Positions 20,543 through 53,540 of a DNA stretch of 55,022 bases are shown here, piece by piece; the first letter of the stretch is position 1; every line of letters begins with the position of its first letter. The notes under the pieces were generated by a model. That model made no database searches. It saw only the letters and a program-made list of their open reading frames with translations, and was not told the DNA's origin. The stretch spans positions 1 to 55,022 of IMG/VR virus record IMGVR_UViG_3300026382_000019. One strand, written 5' to 3'. This stretch comes from a virus. The position numbers and the translations under genes are program-made.

Positions 20543-20559
20543 AGTTAAACCTCCTTTTT

Positions 20560-20573
20560 ATAAATATTTATAA
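20560..20573. promoter_or_regulatory. Palindromic bidirectional late promoter
   Basis: Perfect palindrome TATAAATATTTATA containing TATAAATA on both strands, placed between divergent genes starting at 20542 (minus) and 20589 (plus). Confidence 0.75.
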
Positions 20574-20588
20574 AACCATGGAGAAGAA

Positions 20589-21389
20589 ATGTTAAAAAGA
20601 TATAACCCAACAACTCAACCTGACAGCACAATAACTTCATGGGATTTGCCTGATACTTTTGTCGGAGGTACTGTTACCATTTTCATAAATGGTCAAATGT
20701 TAGCATTACAAGATGATGATTCTGAAGTATATGGTTATACTGTTGATGAAGATAATAAAACTCTTGATTTTTATAATGCGCCTTTGGATGGCGATTTTCT
20801 TTATATAATTTATGATTCAGATGGTAGTACTGATGCAGCCTCTGATTATAGTGGTACCGGATTGATGAGATTGAATAAAGGTTTCAATCTAATTTCATAC
20901 CAAGGACAAAAAGAAGCATTATGGGATAAAGACAAATCGCAAATAGATTATAAAGAAGGTATTTTGGCAAATGTACAAAATCTATTTATTGATCAAATAG
21001 AGGATGTCTATGGTGTATCTGCCAACACAATAGTAAGGGAAATACAAACATATGAAACAGACTCAGGAAAATATAGGACATTTAATGTAGGAAATACATC
21101 ACCGGCTTGGTGTGGTAATGCTGAACATATTACAGACTCATCATTATATAGGGAAGCATTAACTGATGGCACAGAATACGGAGATCCTGGTGATAATGAT
21201 TATGTTGTTTATAATCCTAATAATTTTACTTTAAGTAACTGTTATATAGATACTGACACAATAACATCATTGGATATAGATAATAAACTAGAAGATTTAC
21301 CTGCAGGTTTAAGGACAGGTATTTTAATATACATATACCCTGACGCAGATTTATCCAAAACAGATGATTTGTTGGAAATATGGTTTTAG
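20589..21389 (+). CDS. Virion protein with shared fibre modules, 266 aa
   Basis: Residues 1-80 form a beta-rich domain (VTIFINGQM, DFLYIIYDSD) like the two small minus-strand proteins nearby. Residues 100-150 contain WDKDKSQI and NLFIDQIEDVYG, a module shared with the 412-aa protein at 17031. The C-terminal part (CYIDTDTITSLDID) is again beta-rich. Start chosen from GGAG five bases upstream of ATG and from the late promoter 16 bases before that. It is followed after ten bases by the 1008-aa gene. Tail-fibre or surface protein is the best reading. Confidence 0.65.
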   Translation: MLKRYNPTTQPDSTITSWDLPDTFVGGTVTIFINGQMLALQDDDSEVYGYTVDEDNKTLDFYNAPLDGDFLYIIYDSDGSTDAASDYSGTGLMRLNKGFNLISYQGQKEALWDKDKSQIDYKEGILANVQNLFIDQIEDVYGVSANTIVREIQTYETDSGKYRTFNVGNTSPAWCGNAEHITDSSLYREALTDGTEYGDPGDNDYVVYNPNNFTLSNCYIDTDTITSLDIDNKLEDLPAGLRTGILIYIYPDADLSKTDDLLEIWF

Positions 21390-21399
21390 GAGATAATAA

Positions 21400-24300
21400 A
21401 TGGCATTAAATTATGATATATCTTGTCATGCTCTTGATGAGTTAGGAGGCAACATTGAAAAGGCCAAGGTACATGCTTATTTCATACAAGTAGATAGTGG
21501 CTCAAGTGAATCGACATGGGATAATGATATAAGACTAACAGCAGGTAATGGTAAAGTTTCTTTTAACCTCGGCGATGATTCTTTTTTGACATCAGAGGGT
21601 ATCATAAAGACAGGAGATAAAGTTCTTATATGTGCATGGGTTTCTGATGGGGATGCAGGGAACAATGATAAATCTTCAAAAGAAAATAATACTATAACAA
21701 AATGTGTTAATTTCATTCATACTGTTGATACAAGCTCTAGTTCATGGTCTGAAGATTTTACAATATTTGATGTCAAAACACCGGTTTGTGATATTTCTAT
21801 ACCAACTGTTAATTATACAGGACATTCTTTTACCATAACTAATAACAGCACTGTTAATCAAGGAAGTTTTGACGATCCAAATTTTGATAGAAGTGATTTA
21901 TATCAAAATATTACAAACTCAGGACAAAATATATATTTAGGATTGAATATCGAAAAAACTATATATAACTATGAAGAAAATTCTTTTGAAGAAAATGTAA
22001 CAAAAAATAATACATATTCATACATCGATGCAGGTGACTATACTATTGTAGTGCGACCATATAATTTCTTGGGATTTTATTGTGAAGTAACAAAAGATGA
22101 ACATATATTATACAATAAACCAAGTATTGATTTTGATTATACTTTTAGTAAATTATTAAATTCTGATAAACATATAGGGGTAGGCAATGATGACAAACTT
22201 ATAACCTCCCAATTAAGTTCTACAAATTACGGAGATACTTGGGAACAGATACAAGCAACCTTTGATTGGGAGATAGCAGATACCAATCAAGATGATTCAA
22301 GTAACACAGATACATATACAGGAAAAGACGAAGATTTTGAGCCAACAAAATATTTTATGTCAAAAGGCGATAAAACAATAACTTTGAAACTAAATTGGAA
22401 TGATGGTTTTGATGATTTTACTGAAACAAAAGAATTAAATCCTTTTCTTGATATATATAATATAAGACAAGAAATTAATATTATTACTCAAAAAGAATAT
22501 ACTGTTAACAATACATATGTTCCGTTGGGTGATAATGATTTGGTTACTCTCAAAAATCTAAATTTTGACAACGCTTCTCAAGATTATGATAGTAATTCTC
22601 AATGGAAAACCCTTGATTATAGTATCACAAAAAAGAAAAATGACGGTTCAGATGACAATGAAAGTTACTCTCTTTCTGCAGAAGATGACGATGATTATTT
22701 TAAAGAAATAGAATTTTTTGTTAAATATTATCATGATACAGATAATCCTTGGTCTATAACACAAGACCTTCTATATTGGGATGGATATAAAGATGTTCAG
22801 AAGAGTATTACAGAAGATTATACATCAGAAAAATACTCAATAACTCACAATTTTTATTGGGAAACAGATAGACACGGCAAAGAAAAAAATATTGTTGATG
22901 ATAATGATATGGTTTCTGTATTTAATACATCTATATTTGGTCCTCAAAATAATCAGGATATAGTTATAAAGGATTATTATGATGTCAGGAAAGAAAAGTA
23001 TGCATCATATACAGATGACACCATAGAAGATGACACAGAAGAATTTGAATATACAGAAGATAACCTTACTAATGTTTCAACATTTTATGTAAGAAAGGAT
23101 GGTGATTTTGAAATTGAGAATATAATAACATATTATAATGGTTATGATGAGGTACAATCAACCAAAACAAGAACACTAACTGCATCTGTGCTTATACCTA
23201 ATATAATATTTAATTATACTTCAAGATTAGGTACAAATAAAGATATAGTAGGAAGAGATGATACTGTAACTTTTATTAATAGTTCTTATTTATCCGATTA
23301 TTATAATACAGAATACTCAAAAACAGGTTCAAGGAATCTAAGCATAGATTGGTATTTTTCAAATGATAAAACAAAAGATAATTTCTCAAATATCAATGCA
23401 ATAGGAGGAGATACTTTTACTGAAGATGAAATAAATACAGACGAATTTTTGGATTATGGTATGGAAGATGAACCTAAAATAAATTATTGGAGTATAGGAG
23501 ATCATGATGCAGAAATGATTTTTTATTATAATGATGGTTACTTTAATAGAGATAAAAACTTAATAAAAACAACAAAAACTATACCATATTCTAATCTAAA
23601 TCCTGACGCTACATATACTAATACTGTACCAGATAGAAATACAGAAATATCTTTTATAGATAATAGTACAAATAATGAAAATAGAATAATAGATATAGAT
23701 TGGTCGCTAACAGACAGATATGAAGATAATTCTATGACAACTGATAAAAGGGGAGAAAACAATTTACAGACTTGGTTGAATGCAGGGAGAACAGAAGAAA
23801 TTACAACAACTGTAAATTCAAATGAAAATCATACTTTATCACAAGATACAATAAGATGGGATAATGGTTTTTCATTAATAAATTTCAATAATTCTTATAC
23901 TATATATACAACTAAATATAATATAAACCCTTTATTTAGTTATAAACAAGAATTCGTAACAGGTCCCGAAATTATATTTACTAATGAAAGCACTCCTAAT
24001 GATAATGCTGTTTTATTGCAATATGATTATGAGATTTCGGACACAGATAATGATGGTAATGATGCATTTGTGGCATATAGAGATATAGACATAAGTACAG
24101 CTGAACAAAAGCACACTTATAAAAGTGTGAGTAATTCTCCATTTGAAGATGATGAAGCAAATAAAGAGGTTATTATATTTCAGGATTATGATGATGGATG
24201 GAATGAAGTTTATGATAATTATACAGAATTAATATTGGTAAAACCAAATAGAATATCTCAAGATTTTTTATTGACACCAATAAGACATGAATCAGACACC

Positions 24301-24426
24301 GAAACAGCCAATAATATTATTACAGGAAATAATCCTATAGAATTTCACGATACTTCAAGCACAGAAAGAACGGATGATTTATTTATTACTAATGTAAAAT
24401 ATACTATTATTGAGACGTGTACATAA
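21400..24426 (+). CDS. Large repeat-containing virion protein, 1008 aa
   Basis: N-terminal 115 residues match the start of the 487-aa virion protein (both open with a beta-rich domain containing VxIxAWxxDG-type text). The rest is a chain of PKD/Ig-like repeats about 90-100 residues long, each with a pattern such as DDNDMVSVFNTS, then a Tyr/Trp/Asp-rich strand, DGYxDxQ and a Thr-rich linker. Very rich in Asp, Asn, Thr and Tyr, with almost no Cys. AGGAG precedes ATG. Likely a long fibre or capsid-decorating adhesin; host binding is inference. Confidence 0.65.
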   Translation: MALNYDISCHALDELGGNIEKAKVHAYFIQVDSGSSESTWDNDIRLTAGNGKVSFNLGDDSFLTSEGIIKTGDKVLICAWVSDGDAGNNDKSSKENNTITKCVNFIHTVDTSSSSWSEDFTIFDVKTPVCDISIPTVNYTGHSFTITNNSTVNQGSFDDPNFDRSDLYQNITNSGQNIYLGLNIEKTIYNYEENSFEENVTKNNTYSYIDAGDYTIVVRPYNFLGFYCEVTKDEHILYNKPSIDFDYTFSKLLNSDKHIGVGNDDKLITSQLSSTNYGDTWEQIQATFDWEIADTNQDDSSNTDTYTGKDEDFEPTKYFMSKGDKTITLKLNWNDGFDDFTETKELNPFLDIYNIRQEINIITQKEYTVNNTYVPLGDNDLVTLKNLNFDNASQDYDSNSQWKTLDYSITKKKNDGSDDNESYSLSAEDDDDYFKEIEFFVKYYHDTDNPWSITQDLLYWDGYKDVQKSITEDYTSEKYSITHNFYWETDRHGKEKNIVDDNDMVSVFNTSIFGPQNNQDIVIKDYYDVRKEKYASYTDDTIEDDTEEFEYTEDNLTNVSTFYVRKDGDFEIENIITYYNGYDEVQSTKTRTLTASVLIPNIIFNYTSRLGTNKDIVGRDDTVTFINSSYLSDYYNTEYSKTGSRNLSIDWYFSNDKTKDNFSNINAIGGDTFTEDEINTDEFLDYGMEDEPKINYWSIGDHDAEMIFYYNDGYFNRDKNLIKTTKTIPYSNLNPDATYTNTVPDRNTEISFIDNSTNNENRIIDIDWSLTDRYEDNSMTTDKRGENNLQTWLNAGRTEEITTTVNSNENHTLSQDTIRWDNGFSLINFNNSYTIYTTKYNINPLFSYKQEFVTGPEIIFTNESTPNDNAVLLQYDYEISDTDNDGNDAFVAYRDIDISTAEQKHTYKSVSNSPFEDDEANKEVIIFQDYDDGWNEVYDNYTELILVKPNRISQDFLLTPIRHESDTETANNIITGNNPIEFHDTSSTERTDDLFITNVKYTIIETCT

Positions 24427-38864: not shown

Positions 38865-40103
38865 CTATTCTGCTGCCATTTTGGGATCTGATTTTTTATC
38901 CCTAAATTTATTATATGAGTATGTGATATTCACTGACTCATTTTGAAACTCATCTATATTAAACATATAATCCATCATGATATTTTCCATAACATTTCTC
39001 AGACCCCTAGCACCAGTCTTTTTCGTGAGAGCAATCTCAGCAATCTCATTGATTGCTTTCTCATCAAAATTTAGACTAACATCAGAGAGGTTAAATAATG
39101 TTTTATATTGTTCGATAATGCTATCGCTAGGTTCAGTCATAATCCTTTTCATTGCATCTTTATCAATTTCATGCAATTCTACGATACCTGAAAATCGTCC
39201 TATGAACTCAGGAATCAGGCCAAAATTTATCAAATCTTCTGTGTCCGGAACTTCCTTGATCTCAGTCTGAACAGTACCTAGAGCAGACATTTTCACACCC
39301 GGAGTATCCTTCAGTCCAACAAAAGCACCACCGGCAATGAACAGAATGTCCTTAGTGTTAATCTCCACTGCTTGACCAGATTTTCTATTTTTTCCTGAAC
39401 CTTCAGGATAAAATTTAACAATGTCACCTTCTAAAATTTTCAAGAGTTCTTGCTGAACAGCCTTTCCTGAAACGTCCTTGTTGTTCGTTCCGCCAGTGCT
39501 TGCTCTGTTTTTGTCGATTTCGTCCAAAAAGATTATGCCTTTTTCGGCTTTCTGGACGTTTTCTCCTGAATCCTTCCATAATCGTTCAAGGACTGATGAT
39601 ACATCCTCTCCAATGTATCCTGCTGCGGTGAGTGATGTTGTGTTTACAATTGCTAACGGAATATCCAAATGTTTCGCGATTGTCTCTGCAAGGTACGTTT
39701 TTCCTGAACCTGTTGGCCCGATAAACAGAATATTGGATTTGTCTATTTTTAGGTCTGGATTTTTTGTTCTCTGAATATGATTGTATATAGCAACCGATAG
39801 CACTTTTTTTGCTTCATGCTGTCCGACAACATATTCATCCAGAATTGCCTTATAATCCTTAGGCATTGTTGGTTTTTCGGGACCATTAGGCTTGATTGAT
39901 GCTTCAAGTTCCTCTGACGCTTCTTTCATTGATATATTTCTAGGTTTTATGAATTCTGCTTGGTCTTGCAAAAATATCAAATATAATGCTGTTTCGGCAC
40001 ATGACTTACATATGTTAGTATTGTCGCCCTTGATAACTCTATTTTCTTCTGAATCTTTTGTCGAACAAAAGCTACATGTCAATTCTTGGTCTTTATCTTG
40101 CAT
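38865..40103 (-). CDS. clpX: ClpX-like AAA+ unfoldase without IGF loop
   Basis: Full ClpX layout: zinc-binding domain with Cys10, Cys13, Cys32 and Cys35; Walker A IGPTGSGKT (128-136); pore loop GYIG (162-165); Walker B IIFLDEIDK; sensor-2 GARGLR. Length 412 versus about 424 in bacteria. The loop between GGAFVGLKD and GLIPEF, which in bacterial ClpX carries the ClpP-docking Ile-Gly-Phe, reads KMSALGTVQTEI and lacks IGF. The RKH substrate loop is also altered (GSGKNRKSG). It may therefore unfold or remodel proteins without ClpP, or compete with host ClpX. Driven by its own non-late promoter at 40139-40160. Confidence 0.92.
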   Translation of the reverse strand: MQDKDQELTCSFCSTKDSEENRVIKGDNTNICKSCAETALYLIFLQDQAEFIKPRNISMKEASEELEASIKPNGPEKPTMPKDYKAILDEYVVGQHEAKKVLSVAIYNHIQRTKNPDLKIDKSNILFIGPTGSGKTYLAETIAKHLDIPLAIVNTTSLTAAGYIGEDVSSVLERLWKDSGENVQKAEKGIIFLDEIDKNRASTGGTNNKDVSGKAVQQELLKILEGDIVKFYPEGSGKNRKSGQAVEINTKDILFIAGGAFVGLKDTPGVKMSALGTVQTEIKEVPDTEDLINFGLIPEFIGRFSGIVELHEIDKDAMKRIMTEPSDSIIEQYKTLFNLSDVSLNFDEKAINEIAEIALTKKTGARGLRNVMENIMMDYMFNIDEFQNESVNITYSYNKFRDKKSDPKMAAE

Positions 40104-40138: not shown

Positions 40139-40160
40139 ATTATATAATATAAATACTTAA
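40139..40160 (-). promoter_or_regulatory. Non-late promoter of clpX (TTAAGT-N10-TATAAT)
   Basis: TTAAGT at 40160-40155 and TATAAT at 40144-40139 on the minus strand. The plus-strand late octamer at 40148-40155 lies within its spacer. Confidence 0.65.
40148..40155 (+). promoter_or_regulatory. T4-type late promoter of the signalling operon
   Basis: Perfect TATAAATA on the plus strand, 20 bases before the 154-aa gene, interleaved with the clpX promoter. Confidence 0.7.
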
Positions 40161-40175
40161 AAAAAGGAGCATAAT

Positions 40176-40640
40176 ATGAAAGAACTCATAAAAATCGACC
40201 AATCATTACAAAAATTACAAAATGACTTTAACTCTCAACTTGAAGTTCTCGGATCAGATACTAAAGAATTTCATAATGCTTTGATAGAATTGAGTTCGAA
40301 ATATCCTGACCATAAGGAATTGCTTCAGTTTATTGTTTTTATAAATGACAAACTTGAAATTAACCAAAATTTATTTGGTGAAATTGTATCAGATTCATTC
40401 AATGAAATGATAAGACTCAAGAAGGAATTGATATGTGATATCATGTCAAAACATGGACCATCGAAGGACACTCAAAAAGATGAAGGATCATTGTGGAGCA
40501 AAACAAAAGACTTCATTGGCTCATTTAAAAATGCAAAAATTATTCTGACTGCAATGGCAGTCATAGCACTAGCAGCAGCGGTCATCATTGCACCTGCAAT
40601 GTTTTTAAAAATTATCACTGCACTAGCAAAATTATTATAG
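40176..40640 (+). CDS. C-terminally membrane-anchored protein, 154 aa
   Basis: First gene of a five-gene plus-strand operon. Residues 1-115 are soluble, helical and charged (coiled-coil-like DQSLQKLQNDFNSQLEVLG). Residues 120-150 form one or two membrane spans (IILTAMAVIALAAAVIIAPAMFL). AAAGGAG precedes ATG, with the late promoter 20 bases upstream. It may tether or link the signalling proteins that follow. No family recognised. Confidence 0.7.
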   Translation: MKELIKIDQSLQKLQNDFNSQLEVLGSDTKEFHNALIELSSKYPDHKELLQFIVFINDKLEINQNLFGEIVSDSFNEMIRLKKELICDIMSKHGPSKDTQKDEGSLWSKTKDFIGSFKNAKIILTAMAVIALAAAVIIAPAMFLKIITALAKLL

Positions 40641-40655
40641 GATTAGGAGGATAAA

Positions 40656-41354
40656 ATGTTTAAGGGAATTACAGAATTTACAAAAAAATTATTCGAGAGG
40701 ACTTTTGAGAGGACTGACGAGCAAGGCACTACTGAGGAAGACCTTTTCGATGACGAACCTGAGATTCAGGATGATTGTTCTGTTTGTGAATTGAGACATC
40801 AGTGTGTAACAAAAAGGGCATGCGAAAAAGGTTTGGTACCTAAGCTTGATGGTATAGATACATCAAAAGATACACTCCTTATTATTGATGATAATGAGGG
40901 AGTGGTGTCATTCCTAAAAGATGATATAGAATACTTTTTTGAAAATGACATAATCAAAAGGGATGAAATTAATTTACTCGCACTTACTGGCACTGATGCT
41001 GCATTTGCATTGCAAAGAATTTACAAGAGAGGCATTGATATCAAAATAAAATGGGCTATCATAGATATAACACTCGGTGGAAGTAAAATGACTGAGAATG
41101 GAAATATTAAACTTACAGGAGTTGATGTCTTTGAGGAGATTTTCAAACATACACCCGAAAAAGAGGATTTCAAATTTTTATTTTATACAGGGAATAACCT
41201 TAATCCTTATATAAAGTCTAATGAAAAACTTATTGAGCAATTTAAAGTAGTAAAAAATGAGGGTATTAAAAAATATGTTTTATTCAAAACATCAATTGAT
41301 ATAAAGTCAAGAAGGAGTTATATTTCAAAATTTCTCTTCGGGAAGAAAATCTAA
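40656..41354 (+). CDS. Response-regulator receiver protein with Cys cluster, 232 aa
   Basis: A CheY-like receiver fills residues 70-215: LLIIDDNEG gives the acidic pair Asp78/Asp79, KWAIIDITLGG the phospho-acceptor Asp137, FLFYTGN the switch Thr178 and YVLFKTS the Lys211. Upstream, Cys41, Cys44, Cys50 and Cys56 (DCSVCELRHQC) form a probable metal or Fe-S site. There is no DNA-binding output domain, so output is likely protein-protein or allosteric. AGGAGG precedes ATG, and the cognate histidine kinase follows after 14 bases. Confidence 0.85.
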   Translation: MFKGITEFTKKLFERTFERTDEQGTTEEDLFDDEPEIQDDCSVCELRHQCVTKRACEKGLVPKLDGIDTSKDTLLIIDDNEGVVSFLKDDIEYFFENDIIKRDEINLLALTGTDAAFALQRIYKRGIDIKIKWAIIDITLGGSKMTENGNIKLTGVDVFEEIFKHTPEKEDFKFLFYTGNNLNPYIKSNEKLIEQFKVVKNEGIKKYVLFKTSIDIKSRRSYISKFLFGKKI

Positions 41355-41368
41355 AATAAGGAAATGAA

Positions 41369-42637
41369 ATGATAAATATACATGACGCGATTATCACATT
41401 AAAAAGCCATATCAAGAATATAATTATATTTTTGGTTTTGGTTAATGTTATAGCACTTGGGAGTTTTGCTGTTGTTTTTAACATTCATACTGATTACATT
41501 GATAAGCAATTAGACAATAATATTATAGAGTACCAAGAGATTGATCAAGAGCAATTATGTAAATTGGTAAATTGTAAGGGAGTTATTACAAGTTCACACA
41601 AACTATTTAGTCCTGACGAAAAAGGGCACCTAAAGATTGCAGAATATAAAGAATATAGTATGCACAAAATCAATAAAAATTTATTTTTGTTTGATACTGA
41701 TGAACTTGCATTGTATAATAAAGTTGCAGATTCATATTACATTATGGATACATCAAAAATATCAGATGATTACGGGGATATTGCAATGATCTTCATTCCA
41801 TTAATGTGTCTGATTTATCTTGTGCCACTATATAATTCCATAAAGAGGGAAAAAGAGGAGGCTCTTATTCTGAATGCTGGTTCGGAGGCTTTGCTTGCTA
41901 ACAAATCCATGATTAACATAACAGAGAATATACATCATGAATTAAATACACCCCTTGAGGTTATCGATAATAAAATTGAAAAAATTCATACAGAATTGAG
42001 TAATTTTTTACTTGAGGAATACGAAGCAACTGAGAATATTGATACCATTCCTGAGGATAGAATAAAACGAAATAAAAGGATTGTAAAACTCAACGGAGAT
42101 TTTGAATTCATTAGGACATCATCAGAGCAAATCTATGCAGTCCTTGAGAAAATGAAAGGATTCAAACACCTCAGATATAGCAACGGAAACAAATCTCTGA
42201 AAAATATTATTGATGGAGGATTTAAAATTATAAATATTAGCAACACAAACTTTGAATATAAGGTCGATCCTAAATTAGCACAATACAAAATAGGCACCAA
42301 ACTCCTTGTTAATGCAGATTTTTTGAGTATTATTTTAAATCATCTTAAAAATTCTTTGGAAGCCAATGCTTCCAAAATTTTTATTTTATTCAGTAAGTCT
42401 GATGAAAATAATGTGTATATTAGGATTATAGATAATGGAAATGGTATACCTAAAGATGCTCAAAAGAAAATATTTGCACCTAATTTCAGTACCAAAAACT
42501 CTGATACAGGAATTAGAGGAAACGGAATGTACCTAAACAAACATATAATGGAGAATGCAGGCGGAAGTATATCATTGATTTCATCAAGTAAAAAAGGAAC
42601 TACGATAGAATTGAAAATTCCTTCTATAAAAAAATAA
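41369..42637 (+). CDS. Membrane sensor histidine kinase, 422 aa
   Basis: Two spans (about residues 17-37 and 138-155) enclose a periplasmic sensor of about 100 residues with two Cys (CKLVNC). The cytoplasmic kinase shows H-box NIHHELNTPLEV (His190), N-box LNHLKNSLEANA, G1 IDNGNGIP, F-box APNFSTK and G2 GIRGNGMYLNKHI. All catalytic boxes look intact. Transphosphorylation of the receiver encoded just upstream is the expected reaction. Phage-borne histidine kinases are very rare. AAGGAA precedes ATG. The sensed signal is unknown. Confidence 0.9.
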   Translation: MINIHDAIITLKSHIKNIIIFLVLVNVIALGSFAVVFNIHTDYIDKQLDNNIIEYQEIDQEQLCKLVNCKGVITSSHKLFSPDEKGHLKIAEYKEYSMHKINKNLFLFDTDELALYNKVADSYYIMDTSKISDDYGDIAMIFIPLMCLIYLVPLYNSIKREKEEALILNAGSEALLANKSMINITENIHHELNTPLEVIDNKIEKIHTELSNFLLEEYEATENIDTIPEDRIKRNKRIVKLNGDFEFIRTSSEQIYAVLEKMKGFKHLRYSNGNKSLKNIIDGGFKIINISNTNFEYKVDPKLAQYKIGTKLLVNADFLSIILNHLKNSLEANASKIFILFSKSDENNVYIRIIDNGNGIPKDAQKKIFAPNFSTKNSDTGIRGNGMYLNKHIMENAGGSISLISSSKKGTTIELKIPSIKK

Positions 42638-42651
42638 GGAGGTACAGAAAT

Positions 42652-42942
42652 ATGAAGATTTTAAGGGTGCTTGTGATATTATTGATATTTTGTAATGTTG
42701 CTGTACCAAAAGAAACTCGAGAATATATGGATACAAAGGAAGAGATTATATTGGTTCTTCGTCATTCAGATTGTGACATCGAATCAAAATCCGTTAAAGG
42801 ATGGATCAGAATTTTTAACTCTGATGACAGACTTAAGGATTATGGTATATATATATCAGAAAAACAAAGAATAATATTTTTGAGTTATTTTAAACATAAA
42901 TTAGAAGAAAAGCAAAATAGATATAAAAGGGAGATAAAATAA
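42652..42942 (+). CDS. Small exported protein, 96 aa
   Basis: N-terminal signal peptide (MKILRVLVILLIFCNVAVPK) then a charged, helical domain of about 75 residues with one Cys. No lipobox. AGGAGG precedes ATG. It lies between the histidine kinase and the outer-membrane barrel, with a one-base overlap to the latter, so it is probably periplasmic and could link the sensor to the barrel. No family recognised. Confidence 0.7.
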   Translation: MKILRVLVILLIFCNVAVPKETREYMDTKEEIILVLRHSDCDIESKSVKGWIRIFNSDDRLKDYGIYISEKQRIIFLSYFKHKLEEKQNRYKREIK

Positions 42943-44192
42943 TGGGCAAAATAAATAAATTATTATTGATGATATTAATCACATCAGTTCTTACCTTAAA
43001 TCTTATGGCTGATAATAACATGAATTTCAGCGGGATCATGAACATAGGTTATGGCCATGCTGAAAAAAACTTTTCGAACAAGGAAAATGAAACAAAAGAG
43101 ATTTATACATCAAACCTTCAACTTAATGCAGATTACGAAACTAATGATTTCTATTTTCAGAGTACACTTTTTGGGTATGTATATACGATGCCAAATAATC
43201 AAAAAGCACATCTCATAAATTATCATGATGGATATGAGAAACAGGATGTATTTTTCAGAAGCCTTTACGGAAGTTACAAAATTAATCAAAATTTATCAGT
43301 GGGAGCAGGATACCTTGCATTCAGCAATTCTACACCATCAAAATATAACAACGATTACATTCAAGACGGCGAAGGAATCTATATGCTTAATGATAATACC
43401 CTAGCGGCAGTTTTTGCAGTGTATAAGGAAGGCAATTCCAGGACTATCGTGGGAATAGGAACAATCGATGAGACTTTTATTAATACCGGAATGTACATTG
43501 ATGATGCTTTGAGACAAGGGGGAGCATATACAATTTTTGCAATTAACACATACAAATATGAAAGATTTACATTTACATCAGAATTTTTGTATAATTCTTT
43601 AACATATGAGAAAAAAGATTTGAGTGATATTTATCAAGTCGGTTTTGCCACGGCATGGGATGATTCAGAAAATTCTGGATGGTCACTCTATAATGTCCTT
43701 GGCGCAAGTATATATGATAATCATAATGAAGATGCCAAAGAGGAAATTTTCAAAAATGTACTTGGGCCTAAGGCAAAATATGGCGATTATATTTTGGCTA
43801 AATATCCTAATAATTTTGCTATTGAGAACAAAAAATATTATGGTGCGGCAATGCTATGGGGTTTCAGAAAAGATTTTGATATTGATAGGCAAGAATTTTT
43901 CGTCACTGCAGAGTGGTTCCATACTTTTGGTGATTGGACATCAGGCAATCAAGGAAACATTTATTTGTGTCAGGATAATCAGGTTTTTAATATTAGAGAT
44001 GATTCATATTATGCGACATTAGGATATATAATTAATGATCAAGCTACTGTGAAATTTGTGTATACATATTCAGAATATAATGAAAAGGGCAAAATTGGTG
44101 CACCAGCAAGCACTGTAGATACTGAAGATTATATAGGTCCTCAAATTAATAAAATAGAAATTATAAGATTTATATTTTCGTATAAATTTTAG
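42942..44192 (+). CDS. Outer-membrane beta-barrel (porin-like), 416 aa
   Basis: Signal peptide (residues 1 to about 23, ending LMADNN), then alternating amphipathic strands rich in Tyr, Phe, Gly and Asn (for example SVGAGYLAFS, YYGAAMLWGFRKDFD, ATVKFVYTYSEY). It ends in an aromatic residue (IFSYKF), the barrel-assembly signal. It resembles porin-like proteins common in Campylobacterota. A phage outer-membrane barrel could change surface receptors, block superinfection or alter permeability. Host origin is likely. Confidence 0.8.
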   Translation: MGKINKLLLMILITSVLTLNLMADNNMNFSGIMNIGYGHAEKNFSNKENETKEIYTSNLQLNADYETNDFYFQSTLFGYVYTMPNNQKAHLINYHDGYEKQDVFFRSLYGSYKINQNLSVGAGYLAFSNSTPSKYNNDYIQDGEGIYMLNDNTLAAVFAVYKEGNSRTIVGIGTIDETFINTGMYIDDALRQGGAYTIFAINTYKYERFTFTSEFLYNSLTYEKKDLSDIYQVGFATAWDDSENSGWSLYNVLGASIYDNHNEDAKEEIFKNVLGPKAKYGDYILAKYPNNFAIENKKYYGAAMLWGFRKDFDIDRQEFFVTAEWFHTFGDWTSGNQGNIYLCQDNQVFNIRDDSYYATLGYIINDQATVKFVYTYSEYNEKGKIGAPASTVDTEDYIGPQINKIEIIRFIFSYKF

Positions 44193-44193
44193 G

Positions 44194-44223
44194 ATTTTAG
44201 AAAAATTTTTATTTTTCTAAAAT
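44194..44223. terminator. Bidirectional stem-loop terminator
   Basis: Perfect 13-base stem ATTTTAGAAAAAT with a TTTT loop between the convergent barrel and NMNAT-like genes. It is T-rich in both directions and overlaps the stop of the minus-strand gene. Confidence 0.6.
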
Positions 44224-50176: not shown

Positions 50177-51257
50177 CTACCATTCATCCTCATCAATTAA
50201 TTCTGTGGAAGGAGTAAGGTCCCATCCTATTGGATCAGTGATGAGTTTTATGTTTCCTTCAAAACCTTTTTCGTACATTAAGTCTATATCTATAAATTTA
50301 TCTAATCCATACTCAAAGATTTTTTCGTTATTAAATGCAAAAGCATTGCTTCCTGTAATATTTGGTTCTTTCATATATAGAAAACCTATTTTATCTCCTG
50401 GTTCTATTTCTTTTATCCCTTGTATATTTTTATCCTGAATATATTTATTATGAATAAGGGATGCTCTTGAATTTACAGGAGCACTAAGCCATTTATTTTT
50501 CTCTGGTACCCATCTTTTGAATTTTTTATCCTGTTCCTGCCACTGATAATCAAGGCTGGATACACCCTGATTTATACATATTTGAGATGGCAACTGTTCA
50601 TATGTTTTTTCTTTTACCTCTTTCATAAAATTTATAACTTTAGGTAAATCACCATCAATCAAAATGTCCATAGCAGCACCAAGCTCTTTTCTGAAAAATT
50701 TTGGCGTTGTCGCTCTTATCATTGATAATCCCGTTACTTTAAGTTTAGGTTTTGCTAATTTTATATCATCTTCTTGTAATTTTCTACAGAAATACATTTT
50801 TGGTGCAACTGAGATAAAGCAGTCTGCCACAATTTCTCCGTCTTCTATTAGTTTTTCTGGTAAAAAAGCATTAATAGTGTCTGACTGATGAGTTAAGCTT
50901 TTATATGTTACAGGCAACGAAACTTTCTCTATAAAATTATTGGTAAATTCCAATAATCTGTCCTTAGATGCATTATTTTCATAGTCTTTCCCAAATTTCT
51001 TGACAATAAGAGGTTCCACAGACATGTACAAACTGTCGGTATCAATTTGTGCTACATGCCTCCAATTAGTATTCATTCCGTGAAATGTTTCTGTGTCTTC
51101 TTCACCCAATACTTTATCTAAATGAGTGCTATTTGCTTGAATAGCATTTAGGTTAGCATTTCTTGCCCCTGATGTTACTGCCCCAGAAAAATATTCAGCG
51201 TGACCTGCAAATACTGTTGCTTGCATACTTAAGGCACCATAGGCACTATTAATAAGG
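50177..51257 (-). CDS. 43: DNA polymerase gp43, exon 2
   Basis: C-terminal part of the family B polymerase. It begins inside motif B, reading LINSAYGALS after splicing, then has motif C QIDTDSLYMSV with the catalytic Asp pair and ends in an acidic tail LIDEDEW. Splicing to exon 1 at 51619/51257 restores MGMKILINSAYGAL in frame, giving a protein of about 1000 residues. Without splicing the frame is closed by a TGA just upstream of the exon. The exact junction is inferred from protein alignment and the terminal G rule. Confidence 0.88.
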
Positions 51258-51618
51258 CGATGTGTTCAATTTAAGTTCGTTACTCTTAAATCTGAGCTTT
51301 TAACTCAACTCTGTATCTCTACAGATGTCCAGACTATATCTTCATCCTTAACTTAATATTAGGATGCCCACCACTTCCACTCACTTGAGTGTACTTCCTT
51401 TCGGAATAGTCGTTGAACCTTCTTCGTATTATATATTATATGTTATATAACTTAGAAGCTTGGCTGCTGATTGTCTTTACCTTATATTTTTCAAACGTTC
51501 ATATAGTGATTTCTCCTATATTGTAGTATATAAGTATTATCCAGATGTCCCAGCAATTCAATGGGTTTCTTCAATGAGAACTATCATATATTACTATATG
51601 ACGAGACCTTGATTTTTA
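51258..51618 (-). ncRNA. Group I self-splicing intron in DNA polymerase gene
   Basis: About 361 bases with the conserved core elements of a group I intron in order: P-like AATTGCTGGGA (51558-51548), Q-like AATCAGCAGCCAAG (from 51472), R-like GTTCAACGACTAT (from 51417) and S-like AAGATATAGTC (51342-51332). The 5' exon end AGAU can pair with GUCU in the intron (U-G at the splice site) and the intron ends in G. It contains no open frame for an endonuclease. It interrupts the codons of polymerase motif B. Confidence 0.85.
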
Positions 51619-53540
51619 ATCTTCATTCCCATTTGAAATACATTCCATCTATCAGCCTCTGCTGATAGATTGAAAATTTTATCTTTATCTTCCTGAGATA
51701 ATTCAACTTTTTTCTTAATTTCTTCTATTTGCACATAGCATGTTTGCATCAATTTTTTGTACTTTTTACGCTTAACCATAATGTCTTCCATTGTTTGTGA
51801 AAGGACACTTCTGAAGTCTTTTCTAAAGAACATTCCGTTTGGAGCCATCGAAACATTATATTTTTTACAGACTCTCATAACTTCTGAACTTGCTTCATCA
51901 TTATTGATAACATGTTCTTGAAACCAAAAGTCGTATTTAATTAATTCTTTAGCATCTACATTCCTAGGATAAAAAATTGCATATTTTGCTCTTAATAATA
52001 AAAGTTCATCAGGCAAATCTTTTGGCTGTATTAATGTCTCAATACCGATATTTAACCACTGAATAACAGAAGGGTATAGTGAAGCAAAATCTAATGAATA
52101 TACCCATTTCCAGAATTTTGCTGTCCCTTTAACAATACCGCCAGGGAATGTCTGTGATGTCAATTTATTTTCATGATCATTTGCTGCTATGAGGTTCATA
52201 TAAAATTGAACCCTATCATCATCTATAAGACTTCTAAAATTTTCATCTTTTTCTATTCTAGTTAATAAAACCGTGTCAGTATCGTCAAATTTGCCTTCTA
52301 ATGGTAGAACCTGGGATTTTTTATAATGATTGTTAAACATATAACTGTTCCACTGCGCTAGTGTTCCTCTGATCATATCCATCGTTACGCCAGTTTCGTA
52401 TGAAATCATTTTCGCTAGGTCAATAAGTTTCAGTTTTTTGTCTAATCCAATGAGCAATTCAACATCCTTAACACCGTACTCGATGAATGTCTCAAAATTA
52501 TTAGCGTAAAATTCAGCAAAATCTGCATGTTCATCATGTTCTACTTTATTTTGGCCAAGTTCATACCCCGCCACCGTATCCAGACTGTATGATGTATGAG
52601 TGGTATATGTATATTTTTTGTACATTTGCATGTAATCTTCTTGAATTATACCAACCCATAAAAACTCATCTTGAACACCGTATGTTGTATTAACCTCTTT
52701 ATGCTTGATGAGGTTTGCGTGTGGTGATAATTGTTTAACATATTCACCGTTAAGGCAATCAGTATCAAATCTCCATCTTGCTTTTTCTTTATCATAATAG
52801 TAAAGGTCATTCCTTTTGTCAAGGACTCTTATGATTCTATTAGTGATATAAGGATCATCATATGTTTTTGTATTCCATCCTGTCATTACAGAAGGGTCCC
52901 TCTTTTTAAGAAGTTCTAAGAAAACTTTTAATAATTTTTCTTCAGTTTCACAATTTATATATTTTATAGCACCATATTCAGATTCATATTTATTTTTGTT
53001 CTCCCACTCTTTATTAAGTCCTAAAATAAAAAAAATATTTGCCTTAGTGTCAAAAATTTGTATTGATGTGATTGATGCCATTGCTGCTCTATCATGACCC
53101 ATTGGTTTCCAATCATTTTTACATTCTATGTTTTTGTTAGGAAGCATATTTTCATCTAATGAAGCTGTTTCAATATCAAAATACCATGTATTACTAAATT
53201 CATGAAAGGCATCAATTGGGTTAGGCCAATATTTTCTAATATATGTTTGCTCTTGAGATTTATTTCCATATATGCTAATGTTTGAACTTTTATAGAGATT
53301 TGCAGCATCTCTATGTTCTTTCATGGTTTTGAATGTTAATTCTTTTAAGGATTGATTTTCTGGGACAGATTTTAATTTTGAATTTCCTTTTTTATCATGA
53401 ATAAAAATGCTTGGTATCACTTTTATTGATTCTGTAAAACATTCTTTTGTCTCGGGATCATATAGTCTTGCATATAAGGCTCCCATGTTTCCTTTGAAGA
53501 CATTCTCATATTGTAGATTTCGTGTGTTTGGGTTTGTCAT
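51619..53540 (-). CDS. 43: DNA polymerase gp43, exon 1
   Basis: N-terminal part of the family B polymerase: exonuclease motif I YFDIETASL (Asp122/Glu124), later exonuclease text SYSLDTVAGYELGQ and YGVKDVELL, and polymerase motif A YSLDFASLYPSV. Exon 1 ends at the codons for MKI. Without splicing, translation would stop ten codons later at a TAG. Replicates phage DNA with proofreading. A non-late promoter lies 90-110 bases upstream with a hairpin between. Confidence 0.92.

Follow-up and report, generated by a model that had tools for sequence, protein, structure and literature searches.

A two-component signalling cassette kept by uncultured phages may time lysis from the envelope

What would a phage do with a complete two-component system of its own? 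The question is raised by an IMG/VR virus record of 55,022 bases (IMGVR_UViG_3300026382_000019), the whole of which is called the window below. Five plus-strand open reading frames (ORFs) occupy its positions 40176-44192 in the order TM1-RR-HK-EXP-OMP, with intergenic gaps of 15, 14, 14 and -1 nucleotides (nt) and a purine-rich ribosome-binding site before each ORF, while the surrounding genes are located on the minus strand. TM1 is a predicted membrane-anchored protein, RR a stand-alone receiver, HK a membrane histidine kinase, EXP a small protein with a signal peptide and OMP an exported beta-barrel. The same layout was given by the original prediction, which proposed a late envelope-sensing circuit under phage control. 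The best overall explanation appears to be a two-component relay owned by the phage, expressed late and sensing the envelope, most likely in the service of lysis. We estimate the probability of this reading at about 0.5.

The window RR, TM1, EXP and OMP gave no useful E-value in Pfam, NCBIfam, PHROGs or PDB sequence searches. HK (422 amino acids (aa), 41369-42637, plus strand like the whole cassette) has transmembrane helices starting at aa ~15 and ~136 and a periplasmic sensor of ~100 aa (41468-41773). Its phospho-acceptor His190 (41936-41938) lies in an H-box of the form IHHELNTP, and the protein aligns with solved PDB kinases from this box onward. The ATPase domain (42323-42622) matches HATPase_c (PF02518) with 2.5e-17 at aa 319-418, and its N, G1, F and G2 boxes are seen in the alignment. 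Scans of IMG/VR with successive alignments, along with scans of species genomes, revealed HK in 19 further viral contigs of up to 272 kb and in one contig binned as bacterial; individual loci are denoted below by numbers such as L002. All 19 aligned HKs retain the H-box, and the claim of a histidine kinase with intact boxes holds. The bacterial-binned contig L015 (QMNM01000115.1) is 5.8 kb long, carries TM1-RR-HK and was assigned to a Cloacimonadota metagenome-assembled genome; it is probably stray phage DNA that was misbinned.

RR (40656-41354) belongs to the receivers by its modelled fold and its residues. The AlphaFold2 model exhibits the (beta-alpha)5 receiver fold at residues 72-228 (mean predicted local distance difference test score (pLDDT) 76.9, mostly >85 in the receiver part), and the best matches in the fold search are receivers, including those of the bacteriophytochrome regulator, RcsB and NtrC1. 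The receiver spans aa 61-232; the first 60 residues are disordered except for a helix at aa 4-13. The acidic pair D78-D79 (40887-40892) and the phospho-acceptor D137 (41064-41066) are kept in 17/17 aligned loci. The switch residue T178 (41187-41189) is Thr in 16 of the 17 and Ser in L033, and K211 (41286-41288) is kept in 16, L034 being not aligned; across nine phages all these positions are invariant. The full catalytic set, first read from the window sequence, is thus confirmed in the relatives. By sequence, the window RR matches neither Pfam Response_reg nor any PDB entry, and the best value in the family (0.00033, L028) is below the cut-off; the missing Pfam match is best understood as divergence. 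HK likewise has no Pfam HisKA match though its H-box is intact. Of the profile hidden Markov models named in the original prediction, therefore, HATPase_c was matched and HisKA and Response_reg (for the window RR) were not. In L030, two more receiver genes stand directly after HK (L030:8174-8978, plus strand; Response_reg 2.1e-9 and 8.8e-5), and this phage may have a cluster of three receivers.

When is the cassette expressed? The octamer TATAAATA, which we take to be the core of the T4 late promoter, is found as an exact plus-strand match at 40148-40155, 20 nt 5' of the TM1 ATG; with this element just 5' of its first gene, the cassette has the promoter feature of a T4-type late transcription unit. 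The placement of the octamer in the window is far from random: 14 of its 24 copies are located 16-29 nt 5' of a start codon on the same strand, where chance predicts 0.64, and a count of 14 was never attained in 20,000 randomisations. The perfect late octamer that had been claimed in front of the five genes is hereby substantiated. In relatives having a promoter of their own, an exact or one-mismatch octamer precedes the first gene in several cases; before TM1 it is exact in L002, L005 and L015 and has one mismatch in L003, L004, L014 and L030. Other relatives have the cassette embedded in a same-strand run of tail or lysis genes. A scan for sigma-70 promoters gave no sites in excess of shuffles. 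Late expression of the cassette in infection is well supported by the octamer pattern.

Where would the signal go? RR ends after the receiver and no DNA-binding output domain was found in any aligned RR, as the original prediction had it for the window. The candidate partner is TM1 (154 aa, 40176-40640), a homologue of which is located directly 5' of RR in ~17 of 19 RR loci; the exceptions are L009, with no detectable TM1, and L034, where TM1 is doubtful. The AlphaFold2 model of TM1 (mean pLDDT 74, predicted template modelling score 0.50) consists of a four-helix bundle (aa 2-92), a linker, one transmembrane helix (aa ~107-138) and a short C-terminal helix, and from the charge pattern the bundle would be expected in the cytoplasm. 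A four-helix bundle is reminiscent of HPt phosphotransfer proteins, and weak fold matches include two of them (9h6e, 1yvi). TM1 differs from HPt proteins in being membrane-anchored, and it was not counted among them because the candidate histidine, H33, is not conserved (7/14 TM1 sequences); the fold matches are also not significant. It is also unlikely that TM1 is itself the holin in L096 and L098, because a separate recognized holin adjoins it there. Taken together, a two-component architecture with a non-transcriptional output at the membrane is highly probable for this cassette.

The mechanism that we propose is as follows. HK would sense conditions in the periplasm or at the inner membrane and phosphorylate RR, which would stay at the membrane and bind TM1. 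The relay would then delay or trigger the action of holin and spanin, thus setting the time of lysis, possibly upon superinfection. EXP-OMP would be an added module that informs the cysteine-bearing HK sensor of the state of the outer membrane, e.g. when a second phage adsorbs.

The assignment to lysis is suggested by the gene neighbourhood in relatives. L096 and L098 share the order endolysin (on the opposite strand), holin, TM1, RR, HK. The endolysin is of PF05838 (5e-18 in L096 and 1.5e-18 in L098), the holin matches PF11351 (3e-14 and 3.5e-12) and phrog_3427 (1e-28), and the gap between holin and TM1 is only ~31 nt in L096 and ~13 nt in L098. In L010, the gene of an Rz-like spanin (phrog_214, 1.6e-5) overlaps the lipoprotein gene that comes next, the two forming an Rz/Rz1-like spanin pair, and the end of the lipoprotein gene in turn overlaps TM1. 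An endolysin (phrog_465, 4.7e-34) is located ~1.5 kb 5' of the cassette in L030, and L033 has a gene pair of Rz/Rz1 shape nearby, with no clear PHROGs support.

Several observations weigh against this reading. No recognized lysis gene stands beside the cassette in the window or in most relatives. Lysis-gene linkage in 4 of 21 loci is weak (binomial P 0.034 on an assumed background of 6%), and L096 and L098 may share ancestry, so their linkages are possibly not independent. Tail-fibre-like genes are the neighbours of the cassette in L003 and L009. In L029 (7131-10047, plus strand, on a 39 kb contig) HK-EXP-OMP are present with neither RR nor TM1, which is the reverse of the usual loss. The fold search with TM1 gave no confident match (best E 0.85). 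In L004 (9382-11998, plus strand) the HK gene has an in-frame deletion of the G1 box and the barrel gene an in-frame stop; catalytic loss in homologues, which the original prediction held to speak against it, was thus found in one copy of 19, and this damage may be decay or an assembly fault. Finally, phosphotransfer, the action of RR through TM1, the control of lysis and the input from EXP-OMP are all inferred. As evidence for lysis, we give the tightly packed operons of L096, L098 and L010 greater weight than the tally of 4/21, and we regard the control of lysis by the cassette as having close to an even chance, if anything slightly less.

We read the last two genes as a possible sensing head rather than as the core. 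EXP (96 aa, 42652-42942) has a signal peptide and a KSxKGWIRVFNS core, with homologues in 10 phage loci; OMP (416 aa, 42942-44192) is a DUF3373-related beta-barrel ending in Phe, in keeping with the porin-like barrel that had been proposed. EXP is found after HK in ten loci, and eight loci have OMP after EXP. The pair is missing while TM1-RR-HK is kept in L003, L005, L025, L027, L030, L096 and L098, and L034 keeps RR-HK. The HK sensor harbors a motif E-I-D-x(3)-L-C-x(4)-C whose cysteines, C64 and C69, are nearly invariant. This motif is present in 10/10 phages with EXP versus 3/8 without it (L003, L005 and L030), and is missing from L025, L027, L034, L096 and L098, all of which have no EXP (hypergeometric P 0.0065, relatedness not corrected for). 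HK of L096 and L098, which have neither EXP nor OMP, possesses almost no periplasmic part. Because EXP occurs only with the cysteine sensor and these two kinases are nearly devoid of a periplasmic part, EXP-OMP would belong to sensing rather than to the core; because no phage has the pair without that sensor in its HK, the pair might feed this sensor. That EXP-OMP is an input to HK is nevertheless a tentative proposal, and we hold it to be doubtful. In L003, a minus-strand gene of 101 aa and a gene for a cysteine-bearing protein of 198 aa with two membrane helices are located between RR and HK (L003:8983-9940); the latter protein might replace EXP.

The EXP-OMP pair has bacterial relatives. 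DUF3373 (PF11853; TCDB 1.B.62) is a predicted 18-strand outer-membrane pore (PMC4827864), and it was detected in 115 of the 298 Campylobacteria genomes searched, as against 0 of 14 control genomes. OMP aligns with bacterial DUF3373 barrels with hhalign probabilities of 97.9-98.1% (E 3.3e-13 at 97.9), and EXP with their small exported Campylobacteria partners with probability 96 (E 3.7e-9). A profile search of Campylobacteria genomes with EXP gave 14 small exported proteins, 12 of which are encoded directly before a DUF3373 barrel gene, and phage EXP is likewise directly 5' of OMP. The barrels differ as well: the window OMP is shorter, lies below the Pfam cut-off and is part of a signalling operon, although the OMP homologues of L028 and L031 do match PF11853. 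In the bacterial loci L048-L060 (e.g. L051:1495-3185 and L055:1489-3225) the partner is an exported protein of 84-93 aa with the core QWxRxFxSxxKMxxYxID and the end HAADSDxPxxxG. We make no claim that EXP is a relic of a cytochrome c that lost its haem: the only hint is that one bacterial relative matches a dihaem cytochrome in Pfam, at 0.22.

This kinship gives rise to the first alternative, namely that the pair serves superinfection exclusion or remodelling of the surface. Late in infection, the phage EXP-OMP would take the place of a host receptor or porin, or mask it, and the two-component part would tune the assembly of the pair or an envelope stress response. The relation to a host-class pair and the late expression are in favor of it, as is the fact that OMP changes fastest of all the parts (identity to L002 is 32%, versus 67% for HK), which is what surface exposure predicts. 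However, EXP-OMP cannot be the core purpose, because several relatives keep TM1-RR-HK without the pair, and we consider this alternative rather unlikely. The original prediction had offered lysis timing, a block of superinfection and a change of the surface side by side. Its late, phage-controlled envelope circuit without DNA-binding output is supported by the octamer, the intact kinase and receiver and the envelope partners; as to purpose it is only narrowed, the neighbourhoods in relatives favoring lysis timing over the other two.

Could the system instead be directed at host signalling? HK might phosphorylate host regulators, or RR might drain host kinases, so that a late stress response is silenced or triggered. 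Receiver-only regulators are known to act as phosphate sinks, which is a role RR could take. There is also a precedent, as phage proteins directed at two-component systems of the host exist, such as PIT4 (PMC10714779). A cognate pair is a better fit to the observation that RR adjoins HK, over very large divergence, in all loci but two, L006 (where the contig is cut before RR) and L029, as well as to the separate branch that the phage kinases form: in the tree of HK cores, 16 phage HKs are split from 18 bacterial HKs by one branch with support 100/100. TM1 would also be left with no explanation. We therefore judge such a hijack to be quite improbable.

That the relay belongs to the phage is indicated by further searches. 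No true match to the RR family was obtained in the 298 Campylobacteria genomes, the lone match being weak and to a CheB-like receiver, and four HKs and two RRs had no tblastn match among 50,697 named-phage records. Because the HK branch stands apart, RR is missing from the Campylobacteria genomes and named phages have no match, the signalling core is assigned, within the collections and sensitivities searched, to a phage lineage. No bacterial donor of HK was identified, since the best Campylobacteria matches (E ~1e-19) cover mainly the ATPase domain. The statement that such pairs are very rare in phages is correct for named phages (0 in 50,697 records) but has to be amended for uncultured viruses, of which at least 20 contigs carry this family.

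Most two-component systems end in transcription, and phosphorylated RR could by analogy act on the RNA polymerase of the phage or the host, adjusting late transcription. With no output domain in any aligned RR, with all the other parts located in the membrane or envelope, and with no role left for TM1 and EXP/OMP, this possibility is very unlikely. A host segment misassembled or recombined into one contig, for which the strand opposite to the surroundings might speak, is hardly credible and is rejected: the block, or its core, stands by the same ClpX-like neighbour also in L002, L004 and L005, the order TM1-RR-HK(-EXP-OMP) recurs in ~20 contigs, those with the core having tail sheath (e.g. L033; phrog_23, 2.8e-89), spanin, holin or DNA polymerase genes, the phage HK branch is separate and RR was not found in the 298 Campylobacteria genomes.

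How does the relay compare with known systems? By the sequence tests it is a two-component system, but its owner, its membrane partner and its context are new. It shares with the canonical bacterial systems the H-box His, the N, G1, F and G2 boxes, the receiver residues DD/D/T/K, two transmembrane helices and a periplasmic sensor. In contrast to them, it is phage-borne and late, forms a separate branch, has a receiver too divergent for Pfam and devoid of an output domain, and is nearly always accompanied by a membrane-anchored partner and in some phages by an outer-membrane pair. Lysis inhibition in T4 involves the antiholin RI, the holin T and RIII, with the response to superinfection passing through RI and T (PMC8385771, PMC11413866). 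It resembles our proposal in that a phage control acts late and at the envelope, includes a small protein exported to the periplasm and has the same supposed purpose. However, T4 has neither kinase nor receiver, EXP has its kin in a bacterial family, and the RI/T system is unrelated; a PHROGs scan gave TM1 and EXP no match to lysis families. The C. difficile phage phiCDHM1 also carries a histidine kinase gene, agrC, among its agr genes, without the response regulator AgrA (PMC3901668, PMC7790227), but these are borrowed quorum-sensing genes in a temperate phage of a Gram-positive host. Receiver or kinase domains are found as well in Alteromonas phage V22, with a histidine kinase/CheY-like gene (PMC7289586) whose protein is a fold match, and in giant viruses, but as single genes with no conserved cassette reported. 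In our literature search we came across no description of a conserved kinase-receiver cassette in a phage. The phage kinases that we found described are single or borrowed genes, whereas here kinase, receiver and membrane partner stay together in large phages that differ greatly from one another; a complete dedicated two-component system kept through long evolution is not known for phages.

If the proposed reading is true, this would be the first case of a phage deciding on lysis by histidine-aspartate phosphotransfer, and with lysis control shown the cassette would deserve a category of its own. For the question of how lytic phages besides T4 sense their surroundings and time lysis, the cassette offers three small genes for testing. 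In addition, parts of a viral signalling operon have kin in a bacterial outer-membrane gene pair, and the uncharacterised DUF3373 barrels gain a first partner. In its fullest form, in which a large uncultured group of Campylobacterota phages controls lysis by its own phosphorelay, the kinase would read the envelope through the host-like outer-membrane pair, which may serve as superinfection bait, and a membrane-tethered receiver would set the holin clock through TM1, the proposal is speculative and falls well short of even odds.

The hosts of these phages are probably Campylobacterota, as judged from the kinship of EXP-OMP to the Campylobacteria pair, the DNA polymerase and the late octamer. 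The window genes include a primase, a T4-type RNA ligase/tail-fibre attachment protein and a family-B DNA polymerase in two pieces; in tblastn, the larger piece is best matched by T4-like Campylobacter phages, e.g. NCTC12673 gp43 and CP30A, with ~29% identity. The two polymerase ORFs (349 and 648 aa, 50177-53540, minus strand) are separated by a gap of ~370 nt, as if split.

Some features near the cassette and elsewhere may be added. The divergent gene at 38865-40103 (minus strand) encodes a ClpX-like AAA+ protein with a zinc-binding domain; it likewise adjoins the cassette in L002, L004 and L005, and its closest matches in named phages (39-43%) are in unrelated jumbo and gut phages. An A/T-rich inverted repeat at 44195-44222, TTTTAGAAAAA-TTTTTA-TTTTTCTAAAA, was read from the sequence between the converging OMP and 44209-44772 genes and is possibly their shared terminator. 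The sole other long plus-strand unit of the window (20559-24426) comprises TATAAATA and two genes, one of 266 aa without a PHROGs match and one of 1008 aa for which Pfam gave nothing significant; these are presumably late structural or fibre genes. In L027, a gene for a secreted DNA/RNA non-specific endonuclease (PF01223, 8e-22; L027:7792-8436, minus strand) is located ~70 nt 5' of the cassette and is divergent from it.

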